Assembly: GCA_017557535.1 (NCBI GenBank)
Contig: JAFYYM010000074.1
Location: forward strand, 18,245 to 82,244
Direction of reading: 5' to 3'
Length of the DNA stretch: 64,000 bases
Source of the DNA: Bacteroidales bacterium
GTDB lineage: Bacteria; Bacteroidota; Bacteroidia; Bacteroidales; UBA932
Part shown: piece after piece, positions 36,698 to 38,309 of the stretch
How positions within the stretch are numbered: the stretch's first letter is position 1
Layout: every line of letters begins with the position of its first letter
Notes under the pieces: model-generated
What the model saw: the letters and a program-made list of their open reading frames with translations, nothing else
The model's database searches: none
What the model was told of the DNA's origin: nothing
Position numbers and translations under genes: made by a program

Positions 36698-36740
36698 CGT
36701 CGCAAAGGCCTTGGAGAGTGGAAAACGAGACTCGAACTCG
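36698..36740 (-). repeat. Detached tRNA-Gly 3'-end copy, distal attachment-type repeat
   Basis: Bases 36720-36740 are identical over 21 bases to the T-arm and acceptor end of the tRNA-Gly gene at 38237. The flank on the other side (cttggagag) is shared with the middle copy at 38041-38080. No upstream tRNA body is present; the Fic stop codon lies 16 bases away. This is the pattern of an att site or scar left by insertion into a tRNA 3' end. Confidence 0.75.
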
Positions 36741-36755
36741 TTCTCGCAAATGGAA

Positions 36756-37865
36756 TCAATCAGACAGGATATCCATCAATTCCGTGTTGAACCAGACGAA
36801 TTCCTTCCCGATTCTCTCTTTGGTCAGAAGGCCCATCTCTTCAAGTGCCGAGAGATATTTCTTGGCGGTATTGACACTTTTGATCTTGTCTGAAACCAGA
36901 TTCTTCGGCCGGATATAAGGTTGCTCGAACAGTTTGGGAATATCTAACCGGGGAACAGCGTTTTTCTTTTCTCGGACGAGGTTTTCGGTTTTTTCCATCA
37001 AGGCTCGGATCCGGTTGATTTTGTCCGTCGTATATTCGGTCGTCTGATTTACCGCTTCCAGCATGAACATAATCCACTGTTTCCATCTTCTGGTCCCCGT
37101 TACTTCACCAAGGGCTTGATAATAAGCATCCTTGTTTTGCAGGATATAGGCGCTCAAGAACAGTATGGGAAGATCCAGCAGCTTTTTCTGGATCAAATAC
37201 AGGATACACAGGATTCTGCCGGTGCGGCCATTACCATCCCGGAACGGGTGGATCGCTTCAAACTGGTAATGGGCCAATGCCATTTTCAGGAGGGGGTCTA
37301 TGGGAAACCGTACGTCATCATTCAGGAACGAGACCAGATTATCCATCTTTTTCTCGACCACACCCTTGCCTCTTGGCGGTGTATAGACGGTATCGGCAAG
37401 AAGGGAACCCCACCCCCGTTTTTTGATGACGGTCTCGGCCTGATACGGGCGGATCCCATCCCGAGTCCGCTTGACCTCGCGGTAAATGTTGATGATGGTG
37501 TTCACGGTCAATTCACCCTCGCGGGAGATGTCTTGGAACCCCTTCCAGAGCGCCTCTCGGTAATGGAGGATCTCCTTGGCCGGGCCGTCCAGATAATCAC
37601 TTTCCTGATAAGAAAGAGTCCTGTATAACTCATCGTCGGTTGTGAAGATGTTCTCAATGGCGCTACTGGCCTTTGCCTCGCGGAGGGCTATGGTATTCAC
37701 AAACAGGGACTGATTTGGCAATGTCGATGCAAGTCCCTTCAACTCGGCAAGCCTCCGGCTCGCCTGAAGGAGTCTCGTACGTACATCTTCATCCAGATAC
37801 TCTTCCGCCCCTGGCGGCAGGGGAGGGAGTTGGTTATAGGGTACGTTCCGGTCGTGAGGTTCCAT
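36756..37865 (-). CDS. Fic-domain protein (AMPylase type) with C-terminal winged helix
   Basis: 369 residues from ATG 37865. The Fic active-site loop HPFRDGNGRTGR is intact, so transfer of AMP or a related group to a target hydroxyl is expected. An inhibitory-helix motif SSAIEN near residue 67 (pattern S/TxxxE-G/N) precedes the Fic core, which makes it a class II, self-inhibited enzyme. The C-terminus (NTAKKYLSALEEMGLLTKERIGKEFVWFN) is a winged-helix DNA-binding domain. An earlier Met at 37886 would lie upstream of the predicted transcript start. The gene stands alone between two tRNA 3'-end repeats, behind a palindromic operator. Confidence 0.92.
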   Translation of the reverse strand: MEPHDRNVPYNQLPPLPPGAEEYLDEDVRTRLLQASRRLAELKGLASTLPNQSLFVNTIALREAKASSAIENIFTTDDELYRTLSYQESDYLDGPAKEILHYREALWKGFQDISREGELTVNTIINIYREVKRTRDGIRPYQAETVIKKRGWGSLLADTVYTPPRGKGVVEKKMDNLVSFLNDDVRFPIDPLLKMALAHYQFEAIHPFRDGNGRTGRILCILYLIQKKLLDLPILFLSAYILQNKDAYYQALGEVTGTRRWKQWIMFMLEAVNQTTEYTTDKINRIRALMEKTENLVREKKNAVPRLDIPKLFEQPYIRPKNLVSDKIKSVNTAKKYLSALEEMGLLTKERIGKEFVWFNTELMDILSD

Positions 37866-37883
37866 TTTTGACAGGTTTTCTTT

Positions 37884-37916
37884 CAAGTGTCAAAAATAGC
37901 AAGATTTTGACACTTG
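37884..37916 (-). promoter_or_regulatory. Palindromic operator overlapping the fic promoter
   Basis: Perfect 12-bp inverted repeats (caagtgtcaaaa and ttttgacacttg) are separated by 9 bases. On the minus strand the box TATTTTTG (37898-37891) sits across the proximal arm, so a bound repressor would cover the -7 element. A third half-site, ttttgaca, occurs at 37866-37873 just before the ATG. The Fic protein's own winged helix is the obvious candidate regulator. Confidence 0.75.
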
Positions 37917-38016
37917 CGCAAATAACTGTCATATTTTTTTCATCGTTAAGGCCTCTTTTCTCCGACTGCCGTTTTTGGTTCACCTGCCCCACAACGACCT
38001 GCAGGGCAGATTCGCC

Positions 38017-38051
38017 AAAACAAAAAGGGCCTTTGCGACCGGCAAAGACCC
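38017..38051 (-). terminator. Intrinsic terminator linked to the middle tRNA-end copy
   Basis: On the minus strand gggtctttgc and gcaaaggccc pair over 10 positions with one mismatch and are followed by TTTTTGTTTT. It lies just downstream of the tRNA 3'-end copy at 38061 and looks like an original tRNA-Gly terminator now cut off from its gene. Confidence 0.75.
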
Positions 38052-38080
38052 TTGGAGAGCGGAAAACGAGACTCGAGCCC
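38041..38080 (-). repeat. Detached tRNA-Gly 3'-end copy, middle attachment-type repeat
   Basis: Bases 38061-38076 match the tRNA-Gly 3' end exactly for 16 bases, then diverge. The adjoining cttggagag is shared with the copy at 36720 but not with the intact tRNA. The two outer copies therefore bracket the Fic gene, while this copy and the intact tRNA bracket a 160-bp segment without genes. Confidence 0.7.
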
Positions 38081-38196
38081 GAGGCTGCGCCTCGGACTTC
38101 CTCGCGCCATTCATGACCCCTCAGGCTTCGCTGTCGCTCAGCCAGCTCCCCTATTACAGGGGAGCGTTCGGGGGCGCTCGTGCGGGTCTCTTCCTT
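38078..38196. repeat. Palindrome-bearing gene-free insert next to tRNA-Gly
   Basis: This part of the longest gene-free stretch (37887-38236) is GC-rich and holds two perfect hairpins: 38079-38095 (7-bp stem, 3-base loop) and 38145-38165 (8-bp stem gctcccct / aggggagc, 5-base loop). No ORF is credible. Position between two tRNA 3'-end repeats suggests a small non-autonomous element or a recombination remnant. Confidence 0.5.
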
Positions 38197-38229
38197 CAAC
38201 GAAAAACGACAGCCGTGAAGGCTGTCGTT
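38197..38229 (-). terminator. Terminator of the tRNA-Gly gene
   Basis: On the minus strand aacgacagcc and ggctgtcgtt form a perfect 10-bp stem with a 5-base loop, followed by TTTCGTT. It starts 8 bases after the tRNA 3' end. Confidence 0.85.
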
Positions 38230-38236
38230 ATCGTTG

Positions 38237-38309
38237 AGCGGAAAACGAGACTCGAACTCGCGACCCCGACCTTGGCAAGGTCGTGCTCTACCAACTGAGC
38301 TATTTCCGC
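38237..38309 (-). tRNA. tRNA-Gly (anticodon GCC)
   Basis: The 73-nt minus-strand sequence folds as a full cloverleaf: acceptor GCGGAAA paired with TTTCCGC, D-arm with AGCTCAGTTGGTAGAGC, anticodon arm GACCT-TGCCA-AGGTC with anticodon GCC, and T-loop TTCGAGT. CCA is not encoded. A consensus promoter lies upstream and a terminator downstream. Its last 21-23 bases are the core of the repeats at 36720 and 38061. Confidence 0.97.

Follow-up and report, generated by a model that had tools for sequence, protein, structure and literature searches.

The window analysed here is a stretch of 64,000 nucleotides from a Bacteroidales bacterium (lineage UBA932; GenBank assembly GCA_017557535.1, contig JAFYYM010000074.1, positions 18,245 to 82,244 of the forward strand). 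It is part of contig C53 of a 3.38-Mb draft genome of 139 contigs, and coordinates refer to the window unless a locus is named. Behind its tRNA-Gly(GCC) gene, a short copy of the tRNA 3' end (the inner tail copy) closes a structured repeat unit and is not a genomic-island scar. The main finding is a family of tRNA-tail repeats, independent of the RtT repeats of Escherichia coli and sharing their layout. For the locus as a whole, the preferred explanation has two parts: 38057-38240 is one unit of an RtT-type tRNA-tail repeat, and the adjoining interval with a fic gene is separate (probability about 0.7). An earlier note, made from the sequence alone, had proposed two successive insertions at the tRNA end. 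For the outer, fic-bearing interval an insertion is likely; the inner 179-bp interval proved instead to be a family-wide structured repeat unit.

The repeat unit in the window

The intact tRNA-Gly(GCC) gene lies on the minus strand at 38236..38309 (ARAGORN; Rfam tRNA at 38237-38309, 69.6 bits). A repeat search returned three copies in one orientation, at 36709-36740, 38050-38081 and 38229-38260. By sequence reading and repeat search, the inner tail copy is GAGCGGAAAACGAGACTCGA (sense TCGAGTCTCGTTTTCCGCTC) at 38057..38076 and the distal copy is GAGTGGAAAACGAGACTCGAACTCG at 36716..36740, both on the minus strand. ARAGORN and the repeat search thus agree with the earlier note on three tRNA-Gly 3' ends in the same orientation, with fic between the outer pair; the copies are slightly longer (20 and 25 bp) than the 16 and 21 bases first given. 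The outer two copies also have CCTTGGAGAG in common beside the tail, which the intact gene lacks, as had been noticed. A chance origin of the tail copies was ruled out by the repeat search and by a count of the 16-mer GGAAAACGAGACTCGA, which has six sites in the 3.38-Mb genome at up to one mismatch, against none for a reversed-pattern control. Three of these sites are the window copies and three lie on the small contigs C72 and C87, beside hairpins (judged by eye).

The structured module, including its closing tail copy, spans 38057..38181 on the minus strand (model R1, 66.5 bits, E = 3.8e-11; model R3, 77.6 bits; covariation). The tail copy is 179 bp from the tRNA's own tail, and the window holds a single unit. 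BLAST of 38066-38239 against the own genome found two more places, both on contig C28 and 82% identical, in an array behind tRNA-Arg(acg)-tRNA-Gly(ccc) that repeats in tandem (184 bp x 2.4 copies, 99% matches). Each C28 copy ends with the 3' end of tRNA-Gly(ccc) and not with that of tRNA-Gly(gcc). A known Rfam family was rejected, since all Rfam matches apart from tRNA were below the gathering score.

Units of this kind (about 142-191 bp) run in a common order: the last 20-29 bases of the tRNA, a terminator-like hairpin, the module, and the tRNA's last bases again in a second copy. Many have an inverted partial copy of the tRNA T-arm and variable region between the hairpin and the GC-rich module. 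The host tRNAs in the Bacteroidales family are tRNA-Gly(GCC), tRNA-Gly(CCC) and tRNA-Asp(GTC).

Distribution and linkage to tRNA genes

A DNA search of 120 genomes gave matches in eight, own genome included. Units of 160-190 bp were found behind tRNA-Gly(gcc) or (ccc) in G065 (both), G085, G032 and G019, and the same spacing in G028 (165) and G036 (175). The G008 unit measures 164 bp, with no tRNA in the stretch read, and that of G016 is shortened to 119 bp; a repeat with 74-bp spacing follows the latter (L079, 1550-1915). G083 (split) and G002 (cut by a contig end) were excluded as units. In L226 (G791:C51) the module stands directly behind tRNA-Gly(gcc) with no recognisable closing tail, perhaps a degraded unit.

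Model R1 was built from three alike sequences, and R2 and R3 are later, extended models. R1 gave ten matches among 36 sources, three of these being its own building sequences; the window was matched at 38057-38181 as above. The large model searches used stricter filters, and their counts are lower bounds. Matches to R2 were obtained in at least 47 of 250 genomes of the genus (27 of the 98 good ones; E ≤ 0.01), and R3 matched at least 52 of 299 genomes of the family, in 8 of 25 genera (E ≤ 0.001), own genome included in both. In the order, two of 393 genomes matched, the own one and that of a congener; the remaining 391 served as negative control.

Linkage was scored in A8, a model-fitted alignment of 107 rows. 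A same-strand tRNA lies within 260 nt upstream in 85 rows (64 Gly-gcc, 13 Asp-gtc, 8 Gly-ccc), 16 start close to a contig edge (under 300 nt away), and the remaining six lack a nearby tRNA. Two of these six have an account, L104 by the G028 element described below and L158 by a tRNA 852 nt off; L118, L143, L144 and L202 are unexplained. An exact copy (≥16 nt, median 23) of the local tRNA 3' end closes 81 of the 85 linked units, and the period is 142-191 bp, median 169 (75 first units). In the family search, 46 of 55 matches were linked, six were at contig edges, two had no tRNA despite room and one was unlinked (G795). The two sets overlap, most of the 55 also being in A8; fetched family matches outside it are G861, G763, G881, G813, G668, G773:C21, G742, G795 and G803:C6.

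Because the models contain the tail, a tail-less 93-base query was also run. It gave 13 matches in 9 of 299 genomes, own locus included, of which 12 are beside tRNAs or tail copies; the exception is a 29-base match in G095. The tRNA linkage is therefore not merely built into the model. The tails also track species-specific tRNA changes (CCGAATCCCG in G206 vs CCGAGCCCCG in G224).

In favour of an assembly or binning artefact of metagenome drafts, several copies are at contig ends (the 16 rows above), and the own genome has an estimated contamination of 4.97%. Diverged units inside long contigs of many genomes (G080:C17, G016:C4, G671:C5) refute this for the repeat, for which it is scarcely credible; it may apply to contigs C72 and C87.

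Structure of the module

In the module, the outer stem P1 surrounds hairpins P2 and P3; hairpin P4 follows, and then the tail copy. In the R1-fitted alignment, two-sided changes were found in 19 of 41 pairs (shuffle mean 9.8, slid controls 3-5), and in 35 of 41 pairs in an alignment of 59 rows. A8 has two-sided changes in 38 of 41 pairs and 85.4% of cells paired, the controls giving 26.2 pairs and 70.8% of cells (shuffle mean) and 17-22 pairs and 37.5-49.4% (slid); A8 was fitted to the model, so these percentages are partly built in, hence the slid and shuffled controls. The structure is visible only in the model-fitted alignments A6-A8. RNAalifold on a plain MAFFT alignment of ten sequences did not recover it (15 pairs, none with two-sided changes); G016, most of whose module is missing, was left out of that fold. 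Single-sequence folds of ten modules gave z-scores from -4.00 to -0.40, unremarkable for some units (-0.40 in G008, -0.84 in G028, -1.28 in C28). The covarying stems suggest that pairing matters.

A selfish palindromic mini-element would account for such stems with no RNA function. It would be like a repetitive extragenic palindrome (REP) or a miniature inverted-repeat transposable element (MITE), recombining at tRNA T-loops and spreading between Gly and Asp genes. The stems are near-perfect, with few G-U pairs in P2 and P3, presence is patchy, the hairpins of the two tails differ in the window, G019 and G065, and the T-loop boundary is found in the C72 and C87 tails as well. Yet its copies are not scattered: a mismatch-free P2 palindrome pattern was found in the own genome at three tRNA-linked units and nowhere else, and the tail-less matches are at tRNAs or tails in 12 of 13 cases. 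Moreover, the tail of each unit fits its own tRNA and not a donor tRNA. This explanation is possible, if on balance doubtful.

The inverted T-arm copy

In many units the 5' part is reverse-complementary to the T-arm and variable region of the local tRNA. Over the 85 linked units, the longest exact inverted match has a mean of 10.0 nt; shuffled letters give 5.0 and direct copies 4.8. It reaches at least 9 nt in 55 units, and in 77 it is longer for the local tRNA than the average over tRNAs that differ in their 3' part. Inverted copies of 20 nt, for example, are present in L180 (Asp) and L201 (Gly); there, long stems form between inverted and direct copies, and L140 folds without such a stem.

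Remnants of a tandem tRNA duplication, the module being a decayed or remodelled second tRNA, would explain why units end in a T-loop or T-arm with the 3' half of the acceptor and frequently contain inverted sequence derived from the tRNA. Two tRNAs do stand in tandem at such loci in G893 and in E. coli tyrTV. The conserved stems, however, form no cloverleaf, covary, and recur at three tRNA genes, and a decaying tRNA should drift from its parent, yet the tails are identical to the local tRNA. Decayed full tRNA copies, which the earlier note had named as one of the findings that would overturn its reading, were rejected on the same grounds, and this origin is very unlikely.

Terminators, empty sites and flanks

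An intrinsic-terminator-like hairpin lies directly behind the intact tRNA at 38205..38229 (minus strand; terminator scan and comparison with relatives), and differs from the hairpin of the empty-site relatives. A second terminator-like hairpin, behind the inner tail copy at 38025..38053 (minus strand; terminator scan, blastn and reading of relatives), has its homologue immediately after the tRNA in those relatives. The terminator scan found two against a shuffle mean of 2.4, and by itself is not evidence. By blastn, the stretch 37980..38076 (minus strand) aligns at 81-84% with the 3' flank of the tRNA or tail in L007, L008, L009 and L010. Behind the distal copy, a terminator-region remnant occupies 36687..36715 (minus strand), 36687-36740 aligning with L007, L008, L009 and L052.

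The empty tRNA-Gly-terminator junction that the earlier note had advised looking for is present in L007, L008/L052 (one and the same record) and L009; in all of them the tRNA leads directly into CTCTCCAAGGCCTTTGCG and a hairpin (slightly different in L009). This terminator stretch has its counterparts in the window, behind the inner copy (up to 37980-38076, 83-84%) and, over a shorter span, behind the distal copy (36687-36740, 89-91%). The tRNA 5' side from 39353 onward is syntenic between the window and these relatives. On the 3' side, the window genes have no cluster in common with any of 25 other loci compared, and none of the downstream window genes recurs in the empty-site relatives. Among the compared loci a few 3'-side clusters recur (C21 in L009 and L010; C23 in L010 and L052) and most do not. 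L010 has the tail and terminator, with no further match to the core on its contig.

An integrative element of about 9.4 kb was found in G028 (L048, G028:C52, 319-9797), between the intact tRNA-Gly and the repeat unit, which it displaces. It encodes a tyrosine integrase (Arm-DNA-bind_5, Phage_int_SAM_5, Phage_integrase), DUF3871, AAA_24 and a weak DEAD match. Identity of its tail copy extends to the anticodon loop, the core being 45 bp as counted by eye. tRNA-Gly(GCC) is therefore an integrase target in the genus.

This element, the direct tail copies, the empty site in L007-L009 and the C87 tails that flank toxin-antitoxin-like cargo would all fit two layered tyrosine-recombinase insertions at the 3' end of the tRNA, with one tail copy left by each and the integrase since lost. 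Such an origin is unlikely. The inner interval is a conserved structured unit tied to tRNAs in 8 of 25 genera and not varied cargo, the window tails (20 and 25 bp) are about half of the 45-bp G028 core, and no recombinase was detected among the 15 window proteins tested, a subset of the open reading frames (ORFs) of the window.

On the small contigs of the own draft, two tails flank a helix-turn-helix gene, an AbiEii-like toxin gene and a putative lipoprotein gene (L011, G000:C87, 4137-6534), and a tail copy with a hairpin lies at 532-551 of L012 (G000:C72). Barstar and C10 peptidase genes adjoin tail copies on these contigs, which may be contaminants. In the window, a 3-keto-disaccharide hydrolase-domain gene (38394-39203) is immediately 5' of tRNA-Gly(GCC); L007, L008 and L009 lack it at that place, the alignment skipping from about 38390-38408 to 39353.

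The fic interval

The fic gene is at 36756..37886 on the minus strand (alternative ATG start at 37865). Its ORF has the domains Fic_N, Fic and SoFic-like_C and fits the PADLOC SoFic profile. The stop codon, at 36756, is 15 bases from the distal tail copy, in line with the earlier note's placing of the gene end near that copy. An imperfect inverted repeat in the fic promoter region (I1, 37869..37931; 27-nt arms, 78% complementary; repeat search) contains divergent TTGACA-like hexamers, and the homology of four fic relatives extends into it. It is a possible operator.

Among 101 genomes searched, eight others of the genus have a fic match. Identity is 70-78% in seven, two of them with partial genes, and 51% in the eighth, G004. 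The synteny comparison covered the seven, and none of them has a tRNA or a tail copy in the flanks read (up to 1.5 kb on each side, less at contig ends). Of G004 and the fic relatives outside the genus, an ARAGORN scan covered three (L127-L129). Nucleotide homology of the relatives to the window is limited to the gene and promoter (36754-37938); in the four relatives whose gene is complete it stops at 37912-37938. Since homology is confined in this way and the locations differ, fic seems, from these alignments, to move in a piece of about the size of the gene.

A separate insertion at a duplicated tail probably gave rise to the fic interval. The fic gene with its own promoter (about 1.18 kb) sits between two copies of tail plus native terminator, and most likely entered by recombination at the already duplicated tail of a tRNA that the integrative elements of the genus use. 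Entry at a duplicated tail is rather likely; alternatively, fic may have replaced a module within a tandem array.

Working model and its weak points

As to how the repeat is maintained, short-range recombination or tandem duplication would keep the copies identical to the local tRNA. By read-through past the terminator of the tRNA, the unit would be transcribed into a small structured RNA, and the tail copy would set its 3' end, as is thought for rtT in E. coli. The RNA step, a read-through small RNA with a tail-defined 3' end, is put forward tentatively, at slightly short of an even chance. The likeliest working model would combine read-through with trimming of the RNA at the tail copy; a DNA palindrome kept by recombination appears nearly as likely.

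Besides the fitting of A8 to its model, several points weigh against the reading of the inner interval as an RtT-type unit that acts as RNA. All genomes except E. coli are drafts, many of them partial. The inverted copy is weak in the window unit (6 nt). The hairpin beside the intact tRNA is unlike that behind the inner copy, so the window unit looks inserted or exchanged from another strain and not duplicated in place. A terminator-like hairpin stands between tRNA and module (in the window; in others by eye), so read-through or a promoter of its own is needed. The strand test, comparing G-U with A-C mismatches over 107 rows, is mixed across helices: G-U outnumbers A-C in P1 (64:11), P2 (5:1), the small helix after P1 (67:24) and P4 with the T-stem pairing (73:50), and A-C outnumbers G-U in P3 (4:11) and the outermost helix (13:17). 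P2 and P3 are almost purely Watson-Crick, so DNA palindromes fit as well as RNA. Homology to E. coli RtT was rejected, the models matching in neither direction: nothing matched the RtT model (E ≤ 5) in either L073:5000-6300 or window 36500-38500, R1 had no match at E ≤ 1 in E. coli L086, and R3, run unfiltered against the E. coli repeats, reached 15.9 bits (E = 0.15) on the antisense strand relative to the tRNAs.

A further, speculative and rather improbable proposal is a fold-back repeat that derives from the tRNA by both direct and inverted copying and co-evolves with it, and whose RNA pairs with or mimics the T-arm. If true, tRNA genes in an enteric bacterium and in a Bacteroidales family would repeatedly grow such tails, the tails would act on tRNA maturation or stress signalling, and extra tails would double as landing sites for mobile genes such as fic. 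For the annotation of islands, a tRNA 3'-end copy a few hundred bases from the tRNA is by itself no proof of a genomic-island scar, as it can end a repeat unit.

Comparison with known systems

With tRNA-targeted integrative elements such as that of G028, the window shares the tRNA, direct 3'-end copies and a variable 3' flank. It differs in its shorter tails, in intervals without a detected recombinase among the proteins tested, and in an inner interval that is a conserved module with no gene.

REPs and bacterial interspersed mosaic elements (BIMEs) are likewise GC-rich palindromes between genes, whereas the Bacteroidales unit is tied to three tRNA genes and is not dispersed in its own genome. 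A dispersed REP was rejected by the P2 palindrome count, the own-genome BLAST and the tail-less search. The portion of PMC2965389 available assigns rtT-like elements to the BIMEs and suggests that rtT could act in the stringent response; E. coli rttR is listed as REP-containing in the accessible part of PMC12306157.

The RNAs rrA, rrB and rrF resemble the proposed product in lying between two terminators and being reached by read-through (PMC8144298, in the part available). They belong to E. coli rRNA operons, and that part of PMC8144298 mentions no tRNA tail copy.

The closest likeness is to the 178-bp repeats of E. coli tyrT/tyrV (RtT RNA, Rfam RF00391, rttR), whose structure is mentioned in the portions available of PMC8250186 and PMC7657543. 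E. coli K-12 tyrTV, used as a yardstick, gave 178 bp x 3.1 and four Rfam RtT matches; its tail copies recur every 178 bp, and 10 nt of the tail are also present in inverted form. Knowledge of the tyrT repeat goes back to the 1980s, and to our knowledge it has no settled function. No published description of the Bacteroidales repeat was found in the literature searched. The E. coli and the Bacteroidales repeats both have tandem units of similar length behind a tRNA, every unit closed by a copy of the tRNA 3' end, a GC-rich structured module and an inverted tail copy inside. The Bacteroidales units differ in being at Gly and Asp tRNAs, as against Tyr in E. coli, in belonging to another phylum, and in the terminator-like hairpin behind the tails of the units read. 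The window unit is RtT-like in build and is not an RtT member; as an independent family with many sequences and covarying stems, the Bacteroidales units offer a comparative handle on the role and origin of such repeats.

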